In this document: positions 20,253-54,247 of the stretch, piece by piece | How positions within the stretch are numbered: position 1 is the stretch's first letter | Layout: each line of letters opens with the position of its first letter | Source: Planotetraspora mira | GTDB taxonomy: Bacteria; Actinomycetota; Actinomycetes; Streptosporangiales; Streptosporangiaceae | Direction of reading: 5' to 3' | Length of the DNA stretch: 64,000 nt | Assembly: GCF_016863275.1 (NCBI RefSeq) | Contig: NZ_BOOO01000004.1 | Span: 434,001 to 498,000, forward strand | The notes under the pieces: generated by a model | Databases searched by the model: none | What the model saw: only the letters and a program-made list of their open reading frames with translations | Told to the model about the DNA's origin: nothing | Translations under genes and position numbers: made by a program

Positions 20253-21146
20253 TCAGCGCGGCATCCCGCTCGGGACGTACAGCCGGGTGCCCGGCTGGAT
20301 GAGCGAGCCGGACAGGCCGTTGAGGTTCATGATCTGGCGGACCATCGGAGCCGGATCGCCACCGTCACCCACCGCGCTCGCGATCTTCCACAGCGTGTCG
20401 CCCCGCTGGACGTCCACGTACGGCAGGCCGTCATGGGCGGGAGACGCGGGGCCGGTCGAAGCGGTCACCGCGGCGAGAGTACCCAACCACAGGACTCCGA
20501 GAGCCAGCATCGTGACGACCGTGACCAAGACCACCTTGCCCCGCCGGGTCAGCCGCAGCGGCGGGTCGGACCGGCGCACGCCAGTGCGGGGGTGTACCCC
20601 GGGGCGGGAGGCGTTCGCAGGGCCGGGGACACGCGCGACGGCGCGGGAGCGCGCTCCGGGACGGGAGGCGTTCGGCGGGCCAGGGACACGCGCGACGGCG
20701 CGGGGGTGGGCCCCGGGGCGGGAGGCACCTTCGGGCGCCGGCGTCGCGCGCGCGGCATCGGCGGGGCCAGGCACCGTGCCCCCCCGTGCCACCGTGCCGT
20801 CCACACGGGGGCGGCCACCGAGCACTCCGGCGCCGATGTCGATCACGGGCCCAGCGCCGGCGCCGGTGTCGGTCTCTGCGCCGACCCCGGAGCGGGGCGG
20901 CCCACCGCGCGGACGCGCCGTCTGTCGTCTGGAACGCGACGCCGGCCGGACGAACTCCCGCACATTACTCGGAAGCTCCGGCCGGGCATGCGCACGGGCG
21001 TCAGGGGAACCGTGCATATCGGTGGCACCCTCACGGATTTCGCAAGCGTGTTCCCGAGTGCCGCGGACCCGTTCACGGGTCTCGCGAGGCCGTGAAACGT
21101 CAGAACTAATACGGACAATACGGGGGACGTTGGGCTCCGGCCTCAT
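20253..21146 (-). CDS. Membrane-anchored LysM protein, ChiZ/DivS-like SOS cell-division suppressor (probable)
   Basis: A 297-residue protein. Residues 1-203 are a basic, Pro/Arg-rich cytoplasmic region holding about two and a half copies of a 19-residue repeat (ASRPGAHPRAVARVPGPPN type, 141-190). One membrane helix spans 204-230. A LysM peptidoglycan-binding domain (242-292, YVDVQRGDTLWKIASAVG) is outside. The gene is divergent from lexA and next to nrdR, exactly the position of Mycobacterium tuberculosis Rv2719c (ChiZ), a LysM protein that is SOS-induced and blocks division. The LexA boxes at 21223-21290 support the same role here. Function is inferred from position and architecture. Confidence 0.85.
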   Translation of the reverse strand: MRPEPNVPRIVRISSDVSRPRETRERVRGTREHACEIREGATDMHGSPDARAHARPELPSNVREFVRPASRSRRQTARPRGGPPRSGVGAETDTGAGAGPVIDIGAGVLGGRPRVDGTVARGGTVPGPADAARATPAPEGASRPGAHPRAVARVPGPPNASRPGARSRAVARVPGPANASRPGVHPRTGVRRSDPPLRLTRRGKVVLVTVVTMLALGVLWLGTLAAVTASTGPASPAHDGLPYVDVQRGDTLWKIASAVGDGGDPAPMVRQIMNLNGLSGSLIQPGTRLYVPSGMPR

Positions 21147-26146: not shown

Positions 26147-28078
26147 GTGGCTGACCCATTCCCGGACCTGCCCATGCAGGATCCGCCAACCGATCCCACA
26201 GGGGAGCAGTTTCGTGGGGCATTCTCCAGTTTCGCTGCGGCACCCCCCACGGCGCATGAGAACATGCCAGGCACCCCCAATCCGGGCATGAATTCGGGAG
26301 GTAGCGTGCCCTCGGACCGCAATGAGCCACACCGGTCGAACGCCTGGCCGGAGATTCCACCGGCGTGGCCAGAGGTACCCGGCACCTCCCCCTCGTTCAC
26401 CGACCCCGTGCCACCGTTCGGTGAGAACGGCCCTGCGACCGCGGCGATGCCCCCCATTCCCGCCGCGCCCGACGCCTCCTACCCCCGGCACTCCTCCCCG
26501 GCGCCCACGCCCGGCTGGGGCCCGTCGGACACCCCCGAATCGCGCTGGTCCGGGTCCGGCGGCTCCGACACCGCATGGTCGTCGCAGCAGCAGAGGAGCA
26601 CGGAAGTACGGTCGCCGTTCACCCCGGTCACCAACCCCGTGCCCGGCACGGAACCCTCGGACATCGCGTGGTCGCCGTCCAACCCCTTCGACCCCAGGCC
26701 CGCCTCCACCGGGCCTTTCGAGGCCTCCCGGGCGACACCGCCGGGGCCCTTCGACTCCCTCCGGCCCGGTCCGGCGCCGTCGGAGCCCTCGGAGCCCGCC
26801 TGGTCCCAGCCGGGCCAGGGCGACACCGGCTCGTGGTCCCAGCCGATCCAGAGCGACACCCCCTCGTGGTCCCAGCCAGGCCAAGGCGACACCGGCTCGT
26901 GGTCCCAGCCGGGCCAGGGCGACACCGCGTCATGGCCCGCGCCCGCCGCCGCGTCCGCACCGTCCGCGCCTGCGCCCGCCACACCGGCATGGTCGACTCC
27001 CGCGCCCTCCTCACCCACTGAGACCCCCTGGGGCGCGACCGGGGCCGGTGGCACGGACACGGCCTGGCCCGCGAACGGAGCGGGAGGCTCCGACACGGCA
27101 TGGGGCGCCGCGCCCACCCAGGCAGGCCCCCAGGCCGGCCCGCAGGCGAGCCCTCCTTGGCCCGGACCGCCCGCCGACGTCACGCAGCAGGCTTCCCCCG
27201 CCGGCCCCAGGGGCGAGGATCCGTACAAGCCGTTCGTGACGGCAGGGCAGATCAGCGGACCCAAGACCCCCCCGGCACACCGGCAGCAGGAGTTGTGGGA
27301 CACGGTCTTCGGGGACAGCTCGCAGACGATGGACGACTACGACGACGAGCGCGGCCGTCCCGTCTGGATCTTCGCGCTGGTGACCACGGTGATCGTGGCG
27401 CTCATCGGCGCCCTGGTGTGGGCCTTCGTCGCGGGGCCGCTCAGCTCCGGCGACACCGAGAAGAGTTCCGCCCCGCCGGTGGATCCGACCCCGTCGTCCG
27501 CGGCCAAGCCGGTGGTGCTGTTCCCGGCCCTGGCGGCCTACAAGGGCACGCCTTCTCCCGTGAAGGGCACGGTGTCCGACGCGGACGCCGCCCTCTCACT
27601 GCCGCGGCTCCGCGGCCCGTGGAAGGTCGACACCAACGCGGCCTCCGTCCGCTCGAAGTACGGATTCTCGACGCGCCAGTACGTGCCCGCCGGGATGACG
27701 ACGCGCGGCAAGCCTGAGTTCGCCCAGGTGATGTCGGGCCCGTTGCCGGAGTCGCTGTCCGCGAAGTACACCACCCCGAGCAAGCTCTCCCCCGTGGTCG
27801 CCGCCGTGATGACCACCGCACGGCAGACGCTCTTCCCCAAGGGCAACACGGCCACGAAGGTCGCTTCCCAGCGCTACTCGCACAACGGCCTCACCGGCAT
27901 GCTCGTCACCTACAAGGTCACGGCCGACCACGAGAACACGACGGTCGCCGTGGCGGCGCTCAACACCGGCGGCGACCTGCCCGCGATCGTCTACGTGGCC
28001 GTCCCCGAACTCAAGGACGATCTGCTCCCCGACATCAACTCGGTCTTCAAGTCGACGCGCAAGCTCAAGGCGAGCTAG
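26147..28078 (+). CDS. Proline-rich membrane-anchored protein with extracytoplasmic C-terminal domain, unknown function
   Basis: A 643-residue protein starting at GTG. Residues 1-400 are disordered, rich in Pro, Ser, Gly and Trp, with four copies of an 11-residue unit (WSQPGQGDTGS type) at 219-262. One membrane helix lies near 408-430. A folded domain of about 200 residues follows outside, with YKGTPSPVKGT, a DAALSLPRLRGPW segment and a C-terminal VYVAVPELKDDLLPDINSVF. The last part resembles the end of the protein at 49777-50688, so both belong to one unnamed family. The layout recalls proteins that tether a sensor or cell-wall domain. No enzymatic motif is visible. Confidence 0.88.
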   Translation: MADPFPDLPMQDPPTDPTGEQFRGAFSSFAAAPPTAHENMPGTPNPGMNSGGSVPSDRNEPHRSNAWPEIPPAWPEVPGTSPSFTDPVPPFGENGPATAAMPPIPAAPDASYPRHSSPAPTPGWGPSDTPESRWSGSGGSDTAWSSQQQRSTEVRSPFTPVTNPVPGTEPSDIAWSPSNPFDPRPASTGPFEASRATPPGPFDSLRPGPAPSEPSEPAWSQPGQGDTGSWSQPIQSDTPSWSQPGQGDTGSWSQPGQGDTASWPAPAAASAPSAPAPATPAWSTPAPSSPTETPWGATGAGGTDTAWPANGAGGSDTAWGAAPTQAGPQAGPQASPPWPGPPADVTQQASPAGPRGEDPYKPFVTAGQISGPKTPPAHRQQELWDTVFGDSSQTMDDYDDERGRPVWIFALVTTVIVALIGALVWAFVAGPLSSGDTEKSSAPPVDPTPSSAAKPVVLFPALAAYKGTPSPVKGTVSDADAALSLPRLRGPWKVDTNAASVRSKYGFSTRQYVPAGMTTRGKPEFAQVMSGPLPESLSAKYTTPSKLSPVVAAVMTTARQTLFPKGNTATKVASQRYSHNGLTGMLVTYKVTADHENTTVAVAALNTGGDLPAIVYVAVPELKDDLLPDINSVFKSTRKLKAS

Positions 28079-29412: not shown

Positions 29413-29482
29413 CATCCTGCCACAGACCACCCCGACTCCGGAGATCTACCAGAAAGTTATCCACCCCCCACCCCTCCCCCGC

Positions 29483-29706
29483 GTGATCATGCACACATTC
29501 GGTGATCAGGCCGCCGAGCTGCACAAACCCCGGGCGTGATCATGCACAAGTTCGCGGACAGCCGGCCTGACATGCGCAAACGCAACGCGTGATCATGCAC
29601 AGGTTCGGCGACAGCCGCCCCGACCTGCCCAGACACAGTTCGTGATCATGCGCAGATTCGGCGCCAGCACCCCCGACCTGCGCGAAAGCCGTACGCGATC
29701 ATGCAG
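29483..29706 (+). repeat. 53-bp tandem repeat array A (4 units plus a partial)
   Basis: Units start at 29483, 29536, 29589 and 29642, each exactly 53 bases, and a truncated unit starts at 29695. Each opens GTGATCATGC(A/G)CA, followed by (G/A)TTCG and, mid-unit, TGAC(A/C)TG or GACCTGC-like blocks; the bases between vary. The array fills the gap between the two P450 genes and ends one base before the stop codon of the upstream P450. Apart from the palindrome at 29392-29412 the 340-base gap holds nothing else. The same unit recurs inverted at 31031 and 37956. Confidence 0.9.
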
Positions 29707-30981
29707 TCAGAAGCGGTAGCTCAGGTGCTTGATCCCGTTGATGAAGTTGGAGAGCAGGTAGGACGGCTCGCCTTCGGCACGGATCTCGGGCATCCGGGTG
29801 AACAGTTCGCGGAACATCACGGTGATCTCCCGCCTGGCCAGGTGGGCGCCGAGGCAGTAGTGCGGACCCGGTCCGCCGAAGCCGACATGCGGGTTCGGCG
29901 TGCGCGTGATGTCGAAAACATCCGGATCCGTGAACACGCTCTCGTCCCTGTTGGCCGAGTTGTAGAACAGCAGGACCTTGTCGCCCTTCTTGTACTCCAT
30001 GCCGTTCATGACGTGATCACCGGTGAGCGTCCGGCGGAACTGGATGACAGGGGTCGAATAGCGGATGATCTCCTCGACCGCGCCCGCGATGTGCCCCTCG
30101 AAGTCATCGGTCAGCAGCGCGCGCTGCTCGGGATTGTCGGTGAGCGCCTTGAGGCCGTGACTGATCGCGTTACGCGTCGTCTCACTGCCGGCGACCACGA
30201 GCAGGATGAAGAACGAGCCGAGTTCCTGGGTGGTGAGCCGCTCCTCACCGTTGACGAGCAGGCTGGTCAGGTCGCCGGTGGGGTTGCGGCGGCGCTCGCG
30301 CCCGAGTCGCTGCGCCAGCGAGCTGAGCTCATGGCCCGCCCGCAGCAGTTTGATCAGGCCGCGGGCCGTCGTCCAGCGGCCGGCGACCTCGTCAGGACGT
30401 GCGGAGTCCGCGCCGAATCCTGAATACTCCGAGTCCGCGTTTGCCAGGATCGTGTTCGTACGGCTGAGCACCATGTCATGAAATTTCGCCGGAATGCCGA
30501 TTATGTCGCAGATGACCTGGACGGGAAGCCGTGCGGCGATCTGCGGAACGAAGTCGCCGGCCCCCTCCTTCACGGCCCGGTCGACGATCTCCTCCGCGGC
30601 CCGCTGGAGATCCTCCTCCATCTTGGCGAGGACGCGCGGCGTGAAGGCACGGGACACGATTCGCCGGAGCCTCGCATGCCGGGGATCGTCCATGTTGATC
30701 ATCGAGCCGAAGTAGACCGCCAACCAGCGCGGCATGTCCGGAATGCTGTTGGACGTCGGCTCACTGCTGAAGATCCCGGCGTTCCTACTGGCCTCGGTCA
30801 CGTCCGCGTGCCGTACGAGCGCGTAATAACCGGCCCCCTGCGGAATGAAGGGGATCTTGCTCTCGGTGAGGAAGACCGGCCGGTCCAGCTCGCGCAGCCG
30901 CCGGAAGGCCTCCAGCCGTTCGGCTCGAGGCAGCGCCCAGAACGGAATCCGCGACAGGTCGAGCTCTGGCGCCACGCTCAT
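29707..30981 (-). CDS. Cytochrome P450, paralogue of the downstream P450
   Basis: A 424-residue P450 with the start at ATG 30981. Key parts are DDPRHARLRRIVSRAFTP, the I-helix VAGSETTRNAISHG, NSANRDESVF and the haem loop GFGGPGPHYCLGAHLARRE with Cys376. It shares length and most motifs with the P450 at 28092-29366, which lies downstream on the same strand, so the two arose by duplication. They are not one tight operon, since 340 bases with a palindrome and a repeat array separate them. The CYP124/125-like motifs and the nearby methyl-branched fatty acid genes suggest a lipid substrate (inference). Confidence 0.94.
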   Translation of the reverse strand: MSVAPELDLSRIPFWALPRAERLEAFRRLRELDRPVFLTESKIPFIPQGAGYYALVRHADVTEASRNAGIFSSEPTSNSIPDMPRWLAVYFGSMINMDDPRHARLRRIVSRAFTPRVLAKMEEDLQRAAEEIVDRAVKEGAGDFVPQIAARLPVQVICDIIGIPAKFHDMVLSRTNTILANADSEYSGFGADSARPDEVAGRWTTARGLIKLLRAGHELSSLAQRLGRERRRNPTGDLTSLLVNGEERLTTQELGSFFILLVVAGSETTRNAISHGLKALTDNPEQRALLTDDFEGHIAGAVEEIIRYSTPVIQFRRTLTGDHVMNGMEYKKGDKVLLFYNSANRDESVFTDPDVFDITRTPNPHVGFGGPGPHYCLGAHLARREITVMFRELFTRMPEIRAEGEPSYLLSNFINGIKHLSYRF

Positions 30982-30995
30982 GCCGCCAATCTTGT

Positions 30996-31011
30996 GCAAG
31001 CGACCGCTTGC
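30996..31011. promoter_or_regulatory. Palindromic operator upstream of second P450
   Basis: Seven-base arms GCAAGCG (30996-31002) and CGCTTGC (31005-31011) around AC, 14 bases before the P450 start codon. The CAAGCG/CGCTTG form is typical of TetR-family sites in actinomycetes. It differs from the palindrome of the other P450, so the two paralogues have diverged in control. Confidence 0.6.
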
Positions 31012-31030
31012 GTCAAGACCTCGCCCTCAC

Positions 31031-31258
31031 TGCATGATCACGTACGGCTTTCGCCCAGCTCAGAGCTGCCGCCGCCGAATCCGTGCATGATCACGAATCA
31101 TGTCTGCGCAGGTCAGGCCAGCCATCACCGAACCTGCGCATGATCACGAGTCGCGTTCGCGCACGTCACACCGACCGTCCACGAATGTGTGCATGATCAC
31201 GCCCAGTGATCGCCCAGCTCAACCGCGTGATCACCGAATCTGTGCATGATCACGCGGA
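31031..31258 (-). repeat. 53-bp tandem repeat array B (4 units plus a partial), inverted relative to array A
   Basis: Units on the plus strand begin (T/C)GCATGATCACG at 31031, 31084, 31137, 31190 and 31243, exactly 53 bases apart. Blocks near GCGCA(G/C)GTCA and CGAA(T/C)C(C/T)G recur within units. This is the reverse complement of the array A unit, so arrays A and B face each other across the P450 gene. The array and the palindrome before it account for most of the 333 bases between the P450 and the methyltransferase gene. Confidence 0.9.
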
Positions 31259-31314
31259 GAGCGCGGCGAGCGAGGAGAGCCTGGAGAGATCAACCGGGGG
31301 CGAAGGGGGTGGGA

Positions 31315-32574
31315 TCAGGGCCAGTCGAGGCTGGGGCGGAGGGGGACGTGCGCGTCGGCGTGCTCGTCGAGGCGAACGCCGAGAACCTGGTGGAGCTGGA
31401 TCTTGTTGCGTTCGAAACCGACCACGCACCCCGCCATGTAGAGGCGCCAGACCCGGGCGGTGCCCTCGCCCACTTCGGCGACGGCCTCGTCCCAGTGGGC
31501 GTCGAGGTTGGCGCACCACTCGCGGAGCGTCAGGGCGTAGTGCTCGCGCAGGTTCTCCTCGTGGCGGATCTCGTAGCCGATGTCCTCCATCTGGCGGACC
31601 AGATAGCCGACCGACTCGAGCTCACCGTCGGGGAAGACGTAACGGTTGATGAAACCGCCCTTGTTGATCGTCTTCTCGGTGCCCGTCGGGCGCGTGATGC
31701 AGTGGTTCAGGAGCCGCCCGCCCGGCTTGAGCTTGCCGTACAGGAAGGAGAAGTACGAGGGGAGCTGCTCCTTGCCGATGTGCTCCGTCAGGCCGATCGA
31801 GCTGACCCGGTCGAAGCCGGTCTCCGGGACGTCGCGGTAGTCCATGTAGCGGACCTCGGCGAGCTCGGAGAGACCCGCCTCGGCGATCGCCTTCTGGGCC
31901 CACTCCGCCTGCTGGCGGGAGAGCGTCACGCCGAGGCCCTTCACGCCGTACTCGCGGGCGGCGTGCATCACCATGCCGCCCCAGCCGCACCCGACGTCGA
32001 GCAGGCGCATGCCGGGCTGCAGGTCGAGCTTCTTGGCCACCAGGTCGAATTTGGCGTACTGCGCCTCCTCGAGCGTCGCGTCCGCCGACGGGAAGACCGC
32101 GCAGGTGTAGGCCATCGAGGGGCCGAGCACCCACTCGTAGAACTTGTTGGAGACGTCGTAGTGGTGGTGGATCGCCTCCGCGTCACGCTGCTTGGCGTGG
32201 CGGCTGCCGAGCCTGGCCATCGCGCTGCGGCGCATCTCCTGCGGGGGCGGCGTCGCACGCATCAGCAGCGGCTTGGTCCCCAGAGAGCGGATCGCGGCGA
32301 CCTTCTCACTGAGCGGCAGGTCGTTGAGCGTCAGCGACCACATGCGGTCGAGCAGCGTGTACATGTCACCGTGCACATCGAGGTGCCCGGAGATGTACGC
32401 CCTGGCAAGGCCGAGCTCCCCCGGCGCCTTGGCGAGGTAGGCCACCGCCGCGGGTGACTTGACCTCGATGCGGATGTCCGCGTCGGATGAGCCGGCCTTG
32501 CTGCCGTCGTAGGCCTCGAACTGCACACCCGCGTCGCTTCCGACGACTTTCTCGAAAATCTCGGCAAGAGTCAT
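31315..32574 (-). CDS. Cyclopropane-fatty-acid-synthase-family methyltransferase, TmsB/BfaB-like (10-methylene fatty acid synthesis)
   Basis: A 419-residue SAM-dependent enzyme of the CFA synthase family. The SAM site is LLDVGCGWGGM near residue 195. Family residues for the bicarbonate and lipid site are seen in HHYDVSNKFYEWVLG, YTCAVF and EHIGKEQLPSY. The gene directly upstream is the FAD-linked partner. The two-gene unit is that of the tmsB-tmsA/bfaB-bfaA pair, which methylates the double bond of oleoyl phospholipids to a 10-methylene chain and then reduces it to 10-methylstearate (tuberculostearate). 10-Methyl acids are typical of Streptosporangiaceae membranes. A plain cyclopropane synthase is the alternative. 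Confidence 0.88.
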   Translation of the reverse strand: MTLAEIFEKVVGSDAGVQFEAYDGSKAGSSDADIRIEVKSPAAVAYLAKAPGELGLARAYISGHLDVHGDMYTLLDRMWSLTLNDLPLSEKVAAIRSLGTKPLLMRATPPPQEMRRSAMARLGSRHAKQRDAEAIHHHYDVSNKFYEWVLGPSMAYTCAVFPSADATLEEAQYAKFDLVAKKLDLQPGMRLLDVGCGWGGMVMHAAREYGVKGLGVTLSRQQAEWAQKAIAEAGLSELAEVRYMDYRDVPETGFDRVSSIGLTEHIGKEQLPSYFSFLYGKLKPGGRLLNHCITRPTGTEKTINKGGFINRYVFPDGELESVGYLVRQMEDIGYEIRHEENLREHYALTLREWCANLDAHWDEAVAEVGEGTARVWRLYMAGCVVGFERNKIQLHQVLGVRLDEHADAHVPLRPSLDWP

Positions 32575-32628
32575 GTCAACCTCTCCCCACGTACGAAATC
32601 ACGTACGCAATCCACACGTAGGAACTGC

Positions 32629-34002
32629 CTACCTGGCCCGGACACACTTGTCGTACAGATCGAGCAGTCGCCCGCCCGGGTCGTACGCATGTTTGACCGG
32701 CCAGTACGAGTCCCCGTTGTACAGCCGCCAGAATTCCTCCCGCTCGTAATACGAGCTGGAGTAGAGCGACTTGTGGCCACCGAGCCTGTGCACGGCATGC
32801 TCGATGAGACGGTTGTAGTAGCCGTCCTGCTGACCACGCGGCAGCGGGACCATGCCCCAGAAGCCGAAGTTGATGTAGAGCTTGCCCGGCTCCAGCGGGT
32901 AGATGGGCCAGTCGCGGGTCGCCTTCAGCGGGCACATCCAGACCGGCGTCATGCCGACCTCGCTCTGGAAGATCTCGAGGAACTCCGCGCCCCGCTCGAC
33001 CGGCACCTCGACGTCCTGGATGACCGACTCCTGCACCGGCCTGTTCCGCCAGCGGTCGAGCCGGGCCGTCACGCCGTGTTTCTGGTCGAACCCGACCAGC
33101 TTGCGGTAGACGTCCGAGCGCAGCCACCGGCGCGGCACCAGCGACCGGACCAGCGGCTGCTGCACGCCGAAGGCGCGCGAGCACCAGAACCAGTCGGTGT
33201 CCCAGCGCCACAGGTAGTCGCGGATGGTGAGCCAGTCACGCGGCCGGGTCTGGATCGACTGGTAGTAGATGCGCATCCCGGTGTAGTCGGACGCGTAGGG
33301 CGCCTTGTCGGAGAACGTTCCGACGGTGACGTACAGCTCGCCGGGACCGAAGTACGTCCCGTCGACGAAGTCGATCGGCTCGCCCTCGTGCGTACGGCTC
33401 TCGCAGATCTCGGTCAGGGCGAGCATGCACTTGTCGGCGTCGGTGAACCGGATGTGCGTCAGCCGCACGAACGGTTTGACCGGCGCCAGCTTGATGCGGA
33501 TCCGCAGCGCGTAGCCGAGCGTGCCGTACGAGTTCGGGAAGGCGTTGAAGAGGTCGGCGTGCTCGTTGTCGGGCCGCGCGACCAGGATCTGCCCGTCCCC
33601 CGTCAGGATCTCGAGCTCCTCGACCGACTCGTGCGGCAGGCCGTCCCTGAAGCTGGACGACTCGATGCCGAGGCCGGTGACCGCGCCTCCGAGGGTGATG
33701 GTCTTGAGCTGCGGCACGACGTACGGCATGAGCCCGTAGGGCAGCGTCGCGTCCACCAGGTGCTCGTACGTCGTCATGCCCTGGACCTCGGCCGTCATGG
33801 TCTCGGGGTCCACCTGGATCACCTGGTCCAGGTCGCGGGCCGACAGCGACGCCGTCTTGGTCGGCTCGCGGAATCGGAAGAGGTTCGTGGTGGCCTTCGC
33901 CAGCCGGGGGGCGGCGTCGTCAGGGATCGCCGCGTAGGACTCCCTGATCTGCTCAACCGCCTTTTGGTGGGCGGTCATACTGGTCGTGCTGCGCGTGGGC
34001 AT
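32629..34002 (-). CDS. FAD-binding oxidoreductase, TmsA/BfaA-like (10-methylene to 10-methyl reduction)
   Basis: About 457 residues. An FAD-binding PCMH domain occupies the first 190 residues: VIQVDPETMTAEVQGMTTYE, VVPQLKTITLGGAVTGLGIE and GTLGYALRIRIKL. The C-terminal half, with W-rich segments, resembles DHCR24-type reductases. It begins just upstream of the methyltransferase gene (54-base gap) and runs the same way. In mycobacteria the equivalent flavoprotein reduces the 10-methylene group made by the methyltransferase, using NADPH. ATG 34002 has GGGGGTGG before it; ATG 34023 is also possible. Confidence 0.88.
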   Translation of the reverse strand: MPTRSTTSMTAHQKAVEQIRESYAAIPDDAAPRLAKATTNLFRFREPTKTASLSARDLDQVIQVDPETMTAEVQGMTTYEHLVDATLPYGLMPYVVPQLKTITLGGAVTGLGIESSSFRDGLPHESVEELEILTGDGQILVARPDNEHADLFNAFPNSYGTLGYALRIRIKLAPVKPFVRLTHIRFTDADKCMLALTEICESRTHEGEPIDFVDGTYFGPGELYVTVGTFSDKAPYASDYTGMRIYYQSIQTRPRDWLTIRDYLWRWDTDWFWCSRAFGVQQPLVRSLVPRRWLRSDVYRKLVGFDQKHGVTARLDRWRNRPVQESVIQDVEVPVERGAEFLEIFQSEVGMTPVWMCPLKATRDWPIYPLEPGKLYINFGFWGMVPLPRGQQDGYYNRLIEHAVHRLGGHKSLYSSSYYEREEFWRLYNGDSYWPVKHAYDPGGRLLDLYDKCVRAR

Positions 34003-34228
34003 GGCACCACCCCCATGGATCATTGAGACCGCCTCTAGGCACGTTATCCTTCGAAAACACCGCAGACCAGATTAGACACGTTACGGCTGCGAAAACCATC
34101 GGGGTATGCCCTAGCGAACGGCAAGACGCGCACTCCGACCGAGGTTGTCAGATAGCCGCAGGTCAGACGGTAGGCACCCGGATAAACCCATGGACGACGC
34201 GGGTGGTCTGCGGCCAGGATGACGACTC

Positions 34229-34963
34229 GTGGACCTGCGAACGAGCACCCTGGCGGAGCGCCCCCACCTCGCCGGCGAAGTGGGGAACATGCCCACCGCC
34301 TGGCCCGAGTTCATGCTCAACGATCCGATCGCCGACCTGTATTACACGGTGGCCACGACGGCCTATCCCGAGTTCGTGGTCGTCGCCACCGTCGACGGAC
34401 GACTCGCCGCGAAGGCGATGTCCGTCCCTCTGCTGCTCGACGACGGCCCGCTTCCCGCGAACGGCTGGGACGGCGTCGTCATGCGCGCCTGGCGGACCCG
34501 GCTGCGCGGTGACCGTCCCAACGCCGTCTCCGCACTCGAGATCTCGATCCGGCCCGACCTGCTCGGGCGAGGGCTCTCCGGAGTGATGCTCGAAGCCCTG
34601 CGCGAGCAGGCGGCCGGACTCGGGTTCGCCGAACTCATCGCCCCGGTGCGCCCCAACGCCAAGCATCTCGAGCAGTCGACGCCGATGTCCGAGTACGCCT
34701 TCAGGACGCGCGACGACGGCCTCCCGCACGATCCGTGGCTTCGCGTGCACGTCCGGGCGGGCGGCACGATCGACAGCGTCGCCCCGAGGTCGATGGCCAT
34801 CCCCGGCACTCTGGACCAGTGGCGCAGGTGGACGGGCCTCCCGTTCGACCGGACGGGCAGCACCGAGGTCCCCAAGGCGCTGAACCCCGTGCACGTCGCC
34901 GTCGAGGAGGACCACGCCGTCTACGTCGAGCCCAACGTCTGGGTACGGCACGCCCTCCGGTGA
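34229..34963 (+). CDS. GNAT-like acyltransferase family protein
   Basis: A 244-residue protein starting at GTG. It shows a GNAT pattern: a first strand region YPEFVVVATVDGRLAAKAM, then LEISIRPDLLGRGLSGVMLEALRE near residues 105-130, which holds the acetyl-CoA loop RxxGxG in the form LLGRGLS. The C-terminal 80 residues with DPWLRVHVRAGG are longer than usual for GNATs. It stands alone between the divergent BfaA-like gene and a convergent dehydrogenase gene. Acceptor unknown. Confidence 0.82.
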   Translation: MDLRTSTLAERPHLAGEVGNMPTAWPEFMLNDPIADLYYTVATTAYPEFVVVATVDGRLAAKAMSVPLLLDDGPLPANGWDGVVMRAWRTRLRGDRPNAVSALEISIRPDLLGRGLSGVMLEALREQAAGLGFAELIAPVRPNAKHLEQSTPMSEYAFRTRDDGLPHDPWLRVHVRAGGTIDSVAPRSMAIPGTLDQWRRWTGLPFDRTGSTEVPKALNPVHVAVEEDHAVYVEPNVWVRHALR

Positions 34964-34968
34964 CGACC

Positions 34969-34998
34969 TGCTCGAACACGACGTGCTCGAACACGATG
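34969..34998. repeat. 15-bp tandem repeat between convergent genes
   Basis: TGCTCGAACACGACG (34969-34983) and TGCTCGAACACGATG (34984-34998) are tandem copies, followed by the first five bases of a third. They lie between the convergent GNAT and dehydrogenase genes, with no clear role. Confidence 0.6.
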
Positions 34999-35029
34999 TG
35001 CTCACGTGCGTCGGCTCAAGCACGACGGC

Positions 35030-36010
35030 TCAGGTGCGACGGCGGATCACGGGGTCTGCGCCGTTGACGACGTTGACGACGGGACGGCCGGCGACCGCCG
35101 CCGCGAGGTTGTCGAGCACGCACTGGATGAGACGGCCGCTCGCCTCCGGTGTCACGGCGGCGGCGTGCGGAGACAGCAGGACCTTCTCCGACGCGCGCAG
35201 CGGGTCCGCCGCGCCGAGCGGCTCGGTGTCGTAGACGTCGAGTGCGGCCCCGGCGAGATGGCCGGAGTCCAGCGCGGCCAGCAGCGCGTCGCCGTCCACG
35301 ATCGGGCCCCGGGCCGCGTTGACGAGCACGGACCCCCGGGGCATCCGCGACAGCCGTACGGCATCGAAGAGCCCGCGTGTCTCGTCGGCGAGCGCGATGG
35401 CGAGCACCAGCACGTCACTGGAGGCGGTCAGCTCGTCGAGGTCGAGGTAGACGGCGCCGTGCGAATCGGGCCTGGGCGTGCGCGACCAGTAGGACACCCG
35501 GCACCCCAGCGCGCCGAACATGCGCGCGCACGCGGCCCCGACCGGTCCGAAGCCGACGACGCCGACACGGGCGCCCGCGAGTTCGCGCCGCTGGAAGGTG
35601 AACTGCGGCCAGCCTCCGGCCCGCATCTCGCGATCGGCGTCCGGCAGATGCCGCAGCAACGCCAGCGACGCGGCGAGGCACCATTCGGCGACCGCGTCGG
35701 CGTTGACACCGGCCGTGTTGGACACCGGCACACCGGCCTTCGCCAGCGCCTCCAGGTCGTGGCCGTCCACGCCGACCGAGGGCTGCTGCACGAACGCCAG
35801 CCTCGGGGCATGCCGTACGGCCTCCGCGTCGAGCACGAGCGCGCCGCTCCAGTCGCCGACGACGATGTCGGCCTCGGGCAGCGCGTCCAGCAGGGCGGCC
35901 CGGTCACGGCGGGCGGGTACGGCGAGCTCCGCATGGTCGCCGAGGCCCCCGAGCAGGTCCCGAAGGGCGTCCTCCGGGAGTGGGGGCAGCGCAAGGATCT
36001 TCCACGTCAC
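35030..36010 (-). CDS. D-2-hydroxyacid dehydrogenase family protein
   Basis: A 326-residue NAD(P)-dependent 2-hydroxyacid dehydrogenase. The Rossmann site is GVVGFGPVGAACARMFG. The catalytic Arg is in NAARGPIVD, the Glu in LDVYDTEPL and the His in LLSPHAAAVTPEA. Family members interconvert 2-keto and D-2-hydroxy acids such as glyoxylate, hydroxypyruvate or phosphoglycerate; the lack of a C-terminal ACT domain excludes full SerA. GTG 36010 is chosen, giving a start at VTWKILALPP. It is divergent from the racemase gene with 74 bases between them. Confidence 0.92.
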   Translation of the reverse strand: MTWKILALPPLPEDALRDLLGGLGDHAELAVPARRDRAALLDALPEADIVVGDWSGALVLDAEAVRHAPRLAFVQQPSVGVDGHDLEALAKAGVPVSNTAGVNADAVAEWCLAASLALLRHLPDADREMRAGGWPQFTFQRRELAGARVGVVGFGPVGAACARMFGALGCRVSYWSRTPRPDSHGAVYLDLDELTASSDVLVLAIALADETRGLFDAVRLSRMPRGSVLVNAARGPIVDGDALLAALDSGHLAGAALDVYDTEPLGAADPLRASEKVLLSPHAAAVTPEASGRLIQCVLDNLAAAVAGRPVVNVVNGADPVIRRRT

Positions 36011-36084
36011 GGTCGGAGTCTCGCACGCTCCAGAAACATGTTCTACTGGGCGCAGCAAATGTAGGACCCACCGAGGAGAGTGGA

Positions 36085-37206
36085 ATGGAACAGCCCCGGA
36101 AGGGCCCTCTGGCCGGGGTACGCGTGCTGGAGCTGGCCGGACTCGCGCCCGGGCCGTTCGCCGGGATGATGCTCGCCGATCACGGTGCCGAGGTGTTGCG
36201 CGTCGACCGCGTCACCGCCGTGACCGACCGACCGCGCCCCGACGTCATGGACCGCGGCAAGCACACCATCGGCATCGACCTCAAGTCGCCCGCGGGCGTC
36301 GAGGCGTTCAAGAAGCTGGCGGCCGGAGCCGACGTCGTGATCGAGGTCTTCCGCCCGGGCGTCGCGGAGCGGCTCGGCATCGGACCCGACGACCTGCGCG
36401 CGGACAACGAGAGGCTGATCTACGGCCGGATGACCGGATGGGGCCAGGACGGCCCGCTGGCTACGGCGGCGGGGCACGACATCGACTACATCGCGATCGC
36501 CGGCGTCCTGTCGATGCTCGGCCGCGCGGGCGGCAAGCCCACTCCCCCGATCAACATCCTCGGCGACTTCGCCGGCGGCGGCCTCATGCTGGCGTACGGC
36601 GTGCTGCTCGCCCTGTTCGAGCGGGAGCGCACCGGGAAGGGCCAGGTCATCGACGCCGCGATGGTGGACGGCGCGGCACTGCTGTTCTCGATGTTCTACC
36701 AGGGCGTCCAGAGCGGCGGGTGGGGCGACCGCGGCACGAACCTGCTGGACACGGGCGCCCCGATGTACGACACGTACGAGACGGCCGACGGGGGGTTCCT
36801 CGCGGTCGGGCCGCTGGAGCCGCAGTTCTGGGCCGAGATGATCACCCGGATGGGCCTTGAGGACATGCCGAGCCGGGGCGACCAGGCCAACTGGCCGGCG
36901 ATCCGGGACCGGTTGGCCGCCGAGTTCCGGTCCAAGACCCGGGCGGAGTGGGAGGAGATCTTCGACGGCTCCGACGCCTGCGTCTCCCCCGTGTTGTCGA
37001 TGGGCGAGGCCGCCCGGCATCCGCACAACCAGGCCCGCGGGACGTTCGTCGAGGTCGAGGGTGTGGTGCAGCCGGTTCCCGCGCCCCGCCTGCTGGGGAG
37101 TGGCAGAGGTGACCTGTCCCCCGCCACCCGTCTGCGCGACCTCGGCGCCTGGGGCCTCCCCGAGGCGGAGGCCAAGGCGTACCGCGACGCGGGCGTCCTG
37201 ATCTGA
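36085..37206 (+). CDS. Alpha-methylacyl-CoA racemase (CaiB/BaiF family)
   Basis: A 373-residue family III CoA-transferase-fold protein, with a GAGGAGAG ribosome site. Within this family the catalytic set of alpha-methylacyl-CoA racemase is recognisable: His131 in AAGHDIDYIAIAG, Asp161 in ILGDFAGGG (30 residues apart, as in the mycobacterial enzyme's His126/Asp156) and Glu245 in VGPLEPQFW. The enzyme converts (2R)- to (2S)-2-methylacyl-CoA so that methyl-branched acids can enter beta-oxidation. This fits the neighbouring 10-methyl fatty acid and P450 genes. Confidence 0.92.
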   Translation: MEQPRKGPLAGVRVLELAGLAPGPFAGMMLADHGAEVLRVDRVTAVTDRPRPDVMDRGKHTIGIDLKSPAGVEAFKKLAAGADVVIEVFRPGVAERLGIGPDDLRADNERLIYGRMTGWGQDGPLATAAGHDIDYIAIAGVLSMLGRAGGKPTPPINILGDFAGGGLMLAYGVLLALFERERTGKGQVIDAAMVDGAALLFSMFYQGVQSGGWGDRGTNLLDTGAPMYDTYETADGGFLAVGPLEPQFWAEMITRMGLEDMPSRGDQANWPAIRDRLAAEFRSKTRAEWEEIFDGSDACVSPVLSMGEAARHPHNQARGTFVEVEGVVQPVPAPRLLGSGRGDLSPATRLRDLGAWGLPEAEAKAYRDAGVLI

Positions 37207-37293
37207 GCGTCTCGAGCCCCGTGACCCCCCGAGAGACCGACCAGACCGCGGCGCCCAGGCGCCGGAAGACCGTGAGCGAGGTATGAACGGCCG

Positions 37294-37962
37294 ATGAGCA
37301 TGGACCTCTTCGAGGCGCTGTACACGACGCGCGCGATGCGCCGGGTGAAGCCCGACCCGATCCCCCAGGAGATCCAGGAGCGGATTCTCGACGCCGCGGT
37401 CCGGGCGCCGAGCGGCGGCAACACGCAGGGCTGGCGCTTCATGCTGGTGGACGACCCGTCGGTGAAGGCCCAGCTCGGGCCGCTCTACCGCGACGCGCTC
37501 GGCACCCTGTACGACGGGCACTACAAGGCCGCGCGGGAGCGGGCCGAGGCCGCCGGGGACACCAGGACGCTGAGCGTGATGAAGTCCTCCATGCACCTGG
37601 CGGAGCACTTCGAGGGCTACCCGCTGCTCCTGTTCGCCTTCACCAGGAACGACCCGAGCGGCGGCTCGATCTACCCCTCGGTGTGGAGCGCGCAACTCGC
37701 CGCCCGCGGCTTCGGCGTCGGCAGCGCGCTGACGACGGTGCTGGGGCTCTTCCACGGCGCCGAGGCGATGCGGATCCTCGGCGTCCCGGAGGGCAAGGGC
37801 TGGGAGATGGCCTGCACGGTCACCTTCGGGTACCCGACCGGCCGGTGGGGCGTGGCGCCGCGCAGGCCGGCACACGAGGTGAGCTACCGCAACCAGTGGG
37901 GCGAGCCGGTCGGCTTCGAGATCCCCGAGCCGCTCTGGCCCGCCGACGAGACGAGTGCATGA
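37294..37962 (+). CDS. Nitroreductase-family FMN oxidoreductase
   Basis: A 222-residue nitroreductase-fold protein. FMN contacts are expected at TTRAMRRVKPD near residue 11, RAPSGGNTQGWRF near 37-49 and the C-terminal GYPTGRWG. Members reduce nitro groups, quinones or enones with NAD(P)H. It follows the racemase gene by 87 bases on the same strand and may be co-transcribed. The last two codons and the stop (AGT GCA TGA) overlap the first unit of repeat array C, so the array now defines its C terminus. Confidence 0.91.
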   Translation: MSMDLFEALYTTRAMRRVKPDPIPQEIQERILDAAVRAPSGGNTQGWRFMLVDDPSVKAQLGPLYRDALGTLYDGHYKAARERAEAAGDTRTLSVMKSSMHLAEHFEGYPLLLFAFTRNDPSGGSIYPSVWSAQLAARGFGVGSALTTVLGLFHGAEAMRILGVPEGKGWEMACTVTFGYPTGRWGVAPRRPAHEVSYRNQWGEPVGFEIPEPLWPADETSA

Positions 37963-38211
37963 TCACGGACGGCGAAGTCGCAGGTGAGAGCGGCCGTGGC
38001 CGAATCCGTGCATGATCACGGACGGCGAAGTCGCAGGTGAGAGCGGCCGTGGCCGAATCCGCGCATGATCACGAACGGTGAGTCCGCAGGTCAGGACGGA
38101 CGCGGCCGAATCCGTGCATGATCACGCGGGATGAAGGCGCAGGCCGGGGCGGGGGTCGCCGAACCTGCGCATGATCACGCGGGAGATGAGGGGGTGGGGC
38201 GGGGGTCGCCG
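37956..38211 (-). repeat. 53-bp tandem repeat array C (4 units plus a diverged fifth)
   Basis: Units begin (T/C)GCATGATCACG at 37956, 38009, 38062, 38115 and 38168. The first two units are identical over all 53 bases, which shows recent duplication; the third and fourth keep the head, the GCGCAGG/CGCAGGT block and the CCGAA(T/C)C tail. The fifth has a 3-base deletion and runs into coding sequence to about 38211. Its orientation equals array B. The array sits between two convergent genes, and both have stop codons inside it. Confidence 0.92.
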
Positions 38212-38672
38212 TAGGAGGGCATGACGGCGACGTAGAGGTCCGCCCCTCCCCGGTGGTGGACCTCGAGGTCGGTGGTGAACGCCCTCGGGGGCGCCCCGCC
38301 CGACTCGGTGTGCTTCCACACCTGCTGCCAGGCCTCGATCAGCGCGCCCGGCATGGGGCCGCGCGCCTCGACCTGCATGGCCGGAACGCCGGGCACGCGG
38401 ACGGCGACCATTCCCTCGGGCAGCCGGGCGGCGCTGTGCACCGCGATCCCCACGACCTGCGTGTACGCCCCGTAATGATCGCCCTCGTAGTCGGTCAGCA
38501 CCGCATAGAGGTTCTCATCGACACGGCTCGGCACGTGCGCGAAGGCGCCGGGTGAGCCCGCCCGCGCCCACAAGGCCGGCAACTGCGCGCGGGACGGATC
38601 GGCCTCCGCGGCGTTGGTCGTCCTTACGGCATGGCCGACGATGAGCAGTTCAGGCCGGTCGACGATGACCAC
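38175..38672 (-). CDS. GyrI-like/Cass2-type effector-binding protein
   Basis: A 165-residue protein with the GyrI-like small-molecule-binding fold found alone in Cass2-type proteins and at the end of AraC regulators. Typical stretches are VGHAVRTTNAAEADPS, LYAVLTDYEGDHYGAY, VVGIAVHS and AFTTDLEVHH. There is no DNA-binding domain, so it probably binds a small cationic or aromatic ligand. GTG 38672 is preceded by GAGGAGG. The final residues (GDPRPTPSSPA) and the stop are encoded inside repeat array C, suggesting that its original end was replaced. Confidence 0.85.
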   Translation of the reverse strand: MVIVDRPELLIVGHAVRTTNAAEADPSRAQLPALWARAGSPGAFAHVPSRVDENLYAVLTDYEGDHYGAYTQVVGIAVHSAARLPEGMVAVRVPGVPAMQVEARGPMPGALIEAWQQVWKHTESGGAPPRAFTTDLEVHHRGGADLYVAVMPSYGDPRPTPSSPA

Positions 38673-53721: not shown

Positions 53722-54247
53722 ACAACGTGATCATGCGGTCGGCGAGCTCGGGTGACCGCTCCGTCGCGACCGACAGGGCGTGGATCACCTTGAACAGCTC
53801 CGCGACCTCCAGGTCCTCGCGTACGGCTCCCACCTCCTGTGCCCTGCCGAGCAGGAGACCGGCGGCCCGGTAGAGCATTTCACGGCAGGTGGCGAACAAC
53901 TCCGACTCCGGGCCGAGCGTGGCCACGAGCGCCGTGTTGAGCCCGCGCTTGGCGACGGAGTGGGCCAGGGTCGAGTGCAGCCACGTGACCAGCGCCTCCC
54001 CCTGATCCGGGTGCGAGGCGAGCTCCTCCGCCTCCGCGGCGAGGATCTCTATCTGGTCCCGGTAGACCGCCTCCTGGAGTGCCTGACGTGTCGGGAAGTG
54101 CCGGTAGAGCGTCCCGATCCCCACACCCGCGCGGCGGGCGACCTCCTCCATCGGCGCGTCGGGACCGTCCTGCCCGAACAGCTCCCGGGCCTGCTCCAGC
54201 AGACGGTCGTAGTTGCGGCGCGCGTCGGCGCGCATGGGCCTGCTCAT
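53696..54247 (-). CDS. TetR-family regulator of the adjacent MFS efflux gene
   Basis: A 183-residue TetR regulator. The DNA-binding domain is at residues 10-60 (VARRAGVGIGTLYRHFPTRQALQEAV). The C-terminal domain with LATLGPESELFATCREML is of the SbtR-like TetR_C type. It is divergent from a DHA2-type MFS exporter gene, and two matching palindromes lie between the two starts, so it very likely represses both. Its 3' end overlaps the GlxA-type gene. Confidence 0.93.
   Translation of the reverse strand: MSRPMRADARRNYDRLLEQARELFGQDGPDAPMEEVARRAGVGIGTLYRHFPTRQALQEAVYRDQIEILAAEAEELASHPDQGEALVTWLHSTLAHSVAKRGLNTALVATLGPESELFATCREMLYRAAGLLLGRAQEVGAVREDLEVAELFKVIHALSVATERSPELADRMITLFIEGLGSR

Follow-up and report, generated by a model that had tools for sequence, protein, structure and literature searches.

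A genome-wide family of 53-bp tandem repeats at gene 3' ends in Planotetraspora, possibly docking arrays for a DNA-binding protein

Three tandem arrays of a 53-bp unit lie within a 64,000-nucleotide stretch of the Planotetraspora mira genome (RefSeq assembly GCF_016863275.1, contig NZ_BOOO01000004.1, positions 434,001 to 498,000), referred to here as the window. They belong to a repeat family that recurs in all five Planotetraspora genomes and is placed mostly at the 3' ends of genes, being scarce between divergent genes. The most likely role of the arrays, to which we assign a probability of about 0.4 on the strength of sequence comparison, is to serve as docking sites for a putative sequence-specific DNA-binding protein. 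A DNA site made of three conserved blocks, repeated every five helical turns, set after stop codons, organized in outward-facing pairs and ending in a tail block that differs species-wide would be best explained by a dedicated protein of this kind.

Each of the three arrays consists of five copies of a short head, GCATGATCACG, and four full 53-bp units. Array 1 (29482..29704) is on the minus strand, with heads at 29482, 29535, 29588, 29641 and 29694 (the last of these with one mismatch). Arrays 2 and 3 are on the opposite, plus strand, array 2 (31032..31254) with heads at 31032, 31085, 31138, 31191 and 31244, and array 3 (37957..38179) with heads at 37957, 38010, 38063, 38116 and 38169. All told there are 15 heads, and every one of the 12 steps within arrays is exactly 53 bp; Tandem Repeats Finder called period 53 for arrays 1 and 3 and made no call for array 2. 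A first-pass annotation of the window, made from the letters alone, had recognized the arrays, and the rest of the genome bears it out. The 9.03-Mb assembly from which the window was taken (the window genome) contains 876 exact heads, against none for a reversed-pattern control, so the arrays are not the product of chance.

The anatomy of the unit was established in a 1.17-Mb sample of the window genome, using an array finder that required at least one exact head and limited chained steps to 51-55 or 106 bp. Exact heads are denser in this sample than genome-wide (about 167 versus 97 per Mb), and for that reason its counts are not to be scaled up. It yielded 52 arrays, 42 of them with four or five heads and 43 with four or more. 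Within the limits of the finder, 165 of 167 chained steps were 53 bp and the other two were 52 bp. Recurrence of exact 11-mers, scored inside the arrays with no limit on step size, gave 633 cases at lag 53, six each at lags 52 and 50, and none at lags 51 and 54, while outside the arrays only four 11-mers repeat with period 53. The three blocks described in the first-pass annotation emerge as the high-information columns of 165 units, namely an 11-bp head, a middle block resembling GCAGGTCA and a tail close to CGAAyCTG. Column by column, conservation covers the 11 bp of the head, C(A/T)GGTC(A/G)G at 25-32, CGAA at 45-48, and T, G, and T or C at 51-53. Coupling between columns is strongest for neighbours (TT, TC or AA at columns 19-20), a pattern that fits DNA shape rather than pairing.

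It had also been proposed that 53 bases, being very close to five helical turns, would set every head on the same side of the DNA. The spacing is consistent with such phasing and does not by itself establish it. In P. sp. A-T 1434, 74 steps were distributed among 53 bp (47), 52 bp (20), 54 bp (3), 51 bp (2) and 106 bp (2), so a step of 52 bp, itself still near five turns, is tolerated; the offset of the middle block from the head was unchanged in seven of eight pattern matches to the 52-bp units of this strain. The TGATCA palindrome pointed out in the head is present in the window heads and is not absolute, since the outer heads of a sister genus read ACAAGATCACG or CCAAGATCACG.

The first-pass annotation had suggested a search of the genome and its relatives at 53-base spacing. 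Pairs of exact heads 53 bp apart number 556 in the window genome, and any such pair is present in 7 of 150 sampled genomes of the family; a slightly looser two-head pattern was positive in 9 of 345 genomes of the order. The nine carriers are all five Planotetraspora (the window genome, P. silvatica, P. phitsanulokensis, P. kaengkrachanensis and P. thailandica), a further genome that we take to be P. sp. A-T 1434 (284 matches) and, in a third genus, three species (2, 6 and 7 matches). A sequence-only profile model built from 30 of the 165 units picked out seven genomes from a chosen set of 30. Two of them are Planotetraspora, one is the A-T 1434-like genome, three belong to the third genus (with 76, 31 and 20 matches), and the seventh gave two weaker matches. 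Synteny was also followed for two elements in eight other genomes and for one stretch each from Planobispora siamensis and Microbispora corallina, and showed other genes or unrelated sequence in between and no heads within one mismatch. No protein co-distributed with the repeats was found among the carriers, in a search that did not extend to a whole-proteome comparison.

The arrays follow clear rules of orientation. The 52 arrays of the sample form 34 elements, 18 of them pairs and 16 single arrays, and all 18 pairs face outward, with a minus array on the left and a plus array on the right. Sampled stretches of A-T 1434, P. kaengkrachanensis and P. phitsanulokensis contain 13, 5 and 1 outward pairs, respectively, and no inward ones, so that 37 of 37 adjoining pairs in the sampled parts of four genomes are outward, a tally in which loci shared by descent do not count as independent. 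As for placement relative to genes, none of 36 arrays on contigs C1 and C2 and in the window lies within a called gene, though their ends reach up to 36 bp into such genes. Ten of the 34 elements of the window genome occupy convergent gaps, 21 tandem gaps and three divergent gaps; against 482 background gaps longer than 100 bp (60 convergent, 263 tandem and 159 divergent), this represents an excess of convergent (p=0.016) and a deficit of divergent (p=0.002) locations. The tandem elements are closer to the 3' end of the upstream gene in 15 of 21 cases (median distance 19 versus 71 bp). The corresponding figures are 10 convergent, 20 tandem and one divergent in A-T 1434, with the 3' end nearer in 19 of the 20 tandem gaps, and six, seven and none in P. 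kaengkrachanensis, with the 3' end nearer in six of seven. In the window genome 41 gene 3' ends face an element; 33 of these come within 30 nt of it, and nine have their stop codon inside the end head.

Comparison between species argues that the blocks are under constraint. Along contig C1, aligned to P. silvatica in BLAST pieces of at least 1500 bases, divergence amounts to 1.2% in the heads, 8.8% in the middle block, 4.6% in CGAA and 18.6% in the variable columns of the unit, the last figure being open to inflation where BLAST columns pair non-matching units. For reference, the same comparison gives 1.5% at codon positions 1 and 2, 7.1% at fourfold sites and 4.8% in other intergenic DNA. Matching unit by unit (56 unit pairs, after dropping terminal units and pairs with fewer than 40 of 53 positions identical) puts the blocks at 3.7% and the other columns at 15.9%. 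The first-pass annotation had read three conserved blocks in a drifting background as a sign of selection rather than slippage. Slow blocks amid fast spaces are indeed not what plain slippage would leave, and that part of the claim is upheld between species; the protein-binding part stays putative.

The spaces between the blocks outpace every other class of site measured and change two to three times as fast as fourfold sites. Exchange between the arms of a pair, template switching, or selection for change may be responsible. Along contig C1, changed sites are more frequent in the spaces of paired arrays (249/1157) than in those of single arrays (89/659). In the window genome, units of equal rank in the two arms of a pair resemble one another more than expected, with a likeness of 0.479 versus a rank-shuffle mean of 0.420 and none of 2000 shuffles as high, which is a sign of exchange between arms. 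Arrays 1 and 2, 1.3 kb apart on either side of a P450 gene, are full-length inverted relatives with 81% identity, and the likeness of their variable columns, unit by unit, is 0.85, 0.67, 0.63 and 0.67, compared with 0.33-0.56 for other ranks. The arms of A-T 1434 show no equal-rank excess (0.346 versus 0.348 in nine comparisons).

Arrays tend to stay where they are while their unit numbers change. Locus comparison was possible for 14 of the 34 elements; for the other 20, at least one flank was missing from the stretches fetched for the relatives. P. silvatica has an array at the same place for 14 of 14 and P. kaengkrachanensis for 13 of 14, and at shared loci the unit numbers differ by whole units. 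The head counts of arrays 1 and 2, for instance, are 5/5 in the window genome and P. silvatica, 3/4 in P. kaengkrachanensis, 4/5 in P. thailandica and 2/2 in P. phitsanulokensis. One P. silvatica array (L105:6750-6960), matching window-genome C2:7577, is partly inverted within itself.

Another feature of the family is that the tail block differs species-wide, across the genome. CGAA is the tail in 153 of 167 units in the window genome, and it prevails likewise in P. silvatica (60 of 65), P. kaengkrachanensis (40 of 51) and P. phitsanulokensis (10 of 11). A-T 1434 has GGAA in 64 of 74 units and CGAA in none, and in P. thailandica 15 of 16 units read, including those of the shared P450 locus, have CTTCT before the head.

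How might a protein make use of such arrays? Head, middle block and tail would be read by the putative protein as one site per five helical turns, so that copies bound to successive units would line up along one face of the helix. Once filled, an array would act as a nucleoprotein barrier separating transcription units, halting or insulating transcription that leaves a gene, and may also help to organize the nucleoid. A bolder version, speculative and on the whole fairly unlikely, is that of a chromosome punctuation system, in which a dedicated protein would assemble on five-turn-phased sites, in outward pairs at gene ends, and evolve in step with its motif at hundreds of places simultaneously. 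The 52-nt repeats of Firmicutes (see below) would then be an independent counterpart. If this is true, bacterial nucleoprotein filaments would in general be built in steps of five turns.

Several observations weigh against docking arrays. The A/T content of the unit has no standout peak at 10.6 bp (power 15.6 at k=5, versus 25.9 at k=17 and 17.7 at k=19), and helical A/T periodicity is not used as evidence here because k=5 is not the top peak. P. phitsanulokensis manages with far fewer units, having 92 exact two-head pairs versus 556 in the window genome; at least one head is kept in 11 of the 14 comparable loci and the other three are empty of heads. Gene positions come from a home-made gene caller, and when gap types are tested against all adjacent gene pairs, with no 100-bp filter, neither the convergent excess nor the divergent deficit is significant (p=0.18 each). 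The possible inflation of the variable-column rate noted above belongs here too. Gene conversion between copies could keep the blocks alike and could also spread a new tail. Finally, the window arrays fold somewhat better than shuffles (z of -2.7, -1.4 and -1.8), which leaves room for a role in RNA.

Among the alternatives, an old, palindromic mobile repeat resembling miniature inverted-repeat transposable elements (MITEs) is unlikely, though one of the two main rivals. On this account an inverted pair of arms would once have been spread by a transposase that read the terminal and subterminal heads, and the copies, no longer moving, would now decay or change unit number through recombination. 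Three elements of the third-genus genome G168, picked from the matches, speak for it: they are compact and discrete, 237-239 bp long, with a near-palindromic centre, three heads per side, inner heads 4 nt apart, and 22-bp ends that agree at 22, 21 and 21 positions. The family is patchily distributed among genomes. With regard to target-site duplications, one empty P. phitsanulokensis locus, where convergent stops are about 16 bp apart, has a single CGCG in place of the two that bracket the element in the window genome, and none is clear in the three G168 elements. Against the mobile-repeat reading, all 14 comparable elements are shared in place with P. silvatica, a tally that left out arrays found only in P. 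silvatica. Nor are there the near-identical copies of a recent burst of spread, random pairs of units having a mean likeness of just 0.383 in their variable columns. The search for a transposase covered one family, PF01797 (below). A related idea, that the P450 gene is transposon cargo with arrays 1 and 2 as its ends, was ruled out, as the P450 has not moved: its neighbourhood is syntenic in array-less relatives of the family. The lack of any function is an improbable alternative, in which duplication of units and conversion among heads would keep the repeats regular. Gains and losses of whole units at shared loci, the resemblance of arms at equal rank in the window genome, and the faster change in the spaces of paired than of single arrays would all follow. 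But conversion tracts would have to end at the edges of blocks, the heads change as slowly as codon positions 1 and 2, and neither the 3'-end placement nor the scarcity in divergent gaps, seen in three genomes, is accounted for.

The other main rival, a 3'-end element acting at the level of RNA, is distinctly unlikely as well. Here a transcript would meet a C-rich stretch after the stop codon and then the repeats, and would be ended by Rho or protected by a hairpin of the two arms. The 30 nt past the last head contain 809 G and 285 C, and are thus C-rich for an incoming gene (the tract is likewise G-rich in A-T 1434), and GGGG occurs there in 43 of 52 arrays compared with 191 of 1001 gene ends overall. 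Paired elements fold strongly, a result that lacks a shuffle control and that follows from the palindrome held by the heads and the inversion of the arms. Rho sites are not known to need a fixed 53-bp period, and 16 of the 34 elements have a single arm. Only two of 52 arrays have a run of at least four Ts no farther than 40 nt from the last head. Pairing of the middle block with the tail is not supported, as there is no covariation between them and T at column 26 is not answered at column 51; constraint at the level of DNA is favoured accordingly. The P. thailandica units listed combine a changed tail with what looks like the usual middle block, which was not tallied. Coding potential gives rise to one last candidate, chains of 18-codon mini-ORFs (open reading frames) like those of mycobacterial interspersed repetitive units (MIRUs). 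The window units can be read from ATG to the TGA of the next head, chained by ATGA overlaps, and since 53 is 2 modulo 3 the chain stays open, as it does in 12 of 12 full units. Over 165 units the same frame has in-frame stops in 33, above the column-shuffle mean of 26.5, and the elements are found mostly at 3' ends rather than start codons, so that mini-ORF chains are ruled out as a general function and barely credible in any form. A different frame, starting at the TGA of the head, has fewer stops than expected, in 10 of 165 units versus 23.1 in column shuffles.

The closest known kind of repeat comes from a different phylum. Subirana and Messeguer (2021, PMC8161180) described constant-size 52-nt tandem repeats in Bacillus and other Firmicutes, and stated that these occur in Firmicutes only. 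The two groups have much in common: the Bacillus unit stays at 51-53 nt while its sequence varies, with 2-5 conserved short signals per species, and the arrays are short, non-coding, equipped with species-specific signals and present in tens to about a hundred copies per genome (PMC8161180). The Planotetraspora repeats likewise have a unit of constant 51-53 nt and a variable sequence with a few conserved signals; four or more repeats, another mark of the class, are present in 43 of 52 window-genome arrays, as against two or three heads in P. phitsanulokensis arrays and in 40 of 44 arrays of A-T 1434. The actinomycete host is a difference of range, not of structure. Positions of the Bacillus repeats are only partly conserved between strains, and an orientation rule, a gene-end rule, outward pairs and a substitution test were not seen in the portions of PMC8161180 at hand. 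Those authors named a protein needing constant size as one possibility and a small RNA as the other. The 53-nt consensus of Bacillus pseudalcaliphilus (family 26_53_11 in Table 1 of PMC8161180) contains CATGATCA and GAACCTGT, which also occur in the present unit, differently placed and possibly by chance. The statement in the first-pass annotation that no named repeat has this unit thus holds for actinomycetes in the literature searched and needs to be qualified by the very similar Bacillus class. No description of the present arrays was found in searches of the open-licence literature, where most subscription papers are missing, and none of the terms 'tandem repeat', 'repeats' or 'intergenic' appears in the available text of the Planotetraspora genome paper (PMC11431748).

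Better-known systems were also considered as identities. Repetitive extragenic palindromic (REP) sequences and the bacterial interspersed mosaic elements (BIMEs) that they form are located at gene 3' ends and are linked to the REP-associated tyrosine transposase (RAYT), and the Tas proteins of tandem interspaced guide RNA (TIGR) systems are linked to the Nop domain. Cas1, the marker sought for clustered regularly interspaced short palindromic repeats (CRISPR), was matched in none of seven carrier genomes (control matches in 9 of 14), the Nop domain (PF01798) was not matched in the window genome (control matches in 4 of 14), and neither was PF01797, the Y1-type transposase family to which RAYTs belong, which is present in 5 of 12 genomes searched, including carriers G077 and G119. 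With these marker families unmatched in the window genome, the CRISPR, TIGR-Tas and REP/RAYT identities were set aside. The family shares with CRISPR a constant repeat and a variable spacer, and differs in its many arrays and in the conserved middle block inside the spacer. With MITEs it shares terminal inverted repeats in all three G168 elements read and both arms in 18 of 34 window-genome elements. REP/BIME elements are similar in being intergenic, present in many copies, near 3' ends and in inverted pairs. REPs are palindromes of 20-40 bp (PMC3733652), unlike a 53-bp multi-block unit with no pairing signal. MIRUs (PMC12548453, PMC4213456) are likewise actinobacterial, intergenic and tandem, exist with a 53-bp unit and can be read with ATGA overlaps, yet they insert at start codons with a coupled ORF, whereas the Planotetraspora arrays tolerate stops and sit mostly at gene 3' ends.

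These comparisons give the family a wider interest. A class of repeats so far reported only from Firmicutes gains a counterpart of equal unit length in another phylum, with clear rules (outward pairs, 3' ends, slow blocks in fast spaces, and tail differences). The protein-docking idea can thereby be tested directly, and the five named species and the one strain, which differ in copy number and tail, provide natural controls. There is also a warning for genome annotation, which may count such arrays as CRISPRs. Table 1 of PMC11431748 lists DFAST CRISPR counts of 64 for P. thailandica, 18 for P. silvatica, 15 for P. mira, 4 for P. kaengkrachanensis and 3 for P. phitsanulokensis, and some of these may be miscalled 53-bp arrays, a suspicion raised by the lack of Cas1 matches in the genomes searched.

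Within the window, the genes flanking the arrays encode two P450s, a CMAS-type synthase, a nitroreductase and a Cass2/GyrI-like protein. Array 1 starts 2 bp past the stop of a cytochrome P450 gene (29707..30981, minus strand; Pfam p450), and has the G-rich tract typical of the family outside its outermost head (29461..29479, minus strand; C-rich on the plus strand). Array 2 stands on the other side of that gene, between its start and the 3' end of a cyclopropane/mycolic acid synthase-like (CMAS) gene (31315..32574, minus strand; Pfam CMAS). Array 3 separates two convergent genes whose stop codons both fall within its end heads: the TGA of a nitroreductase-family gene (37294..37962, plus strand; Pfam Nitroreductase) is part of the first head, and the stop of a Cass2/GyrI-like gene (38175..38672, minus strand; Pfam Cass2) is part of the last, with a G-rich tract beyond it (38180..38211, plus strand). 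No Rfam family at gathering thresholds and no tRNA was found in a scan of the window.

The P450 neighbourhood was followed through 80 named loci that hold a relative of this gene. Arrays adjoin the P450 in all five Planotetraspora loci, and the 75 others have no array, one of them having a single head elsewhere. At the junctions beside the P450 (29352-29706 and 30982-31314), several array-less relatives carry extra genes (families F10 and F5/F9), so the arrays stand where genes may have been lost. Two other tandem repeats in the window, at 20586-20726 (57 bp, 2.5 copies) and 26801-26927 (33 bp, 3.8 copies), have units unlike those of the 53-bp family. A solitary exact head at 53726-53736 (minus strand), at the overlap of two convergent genes, is perhaps a worn-down array.

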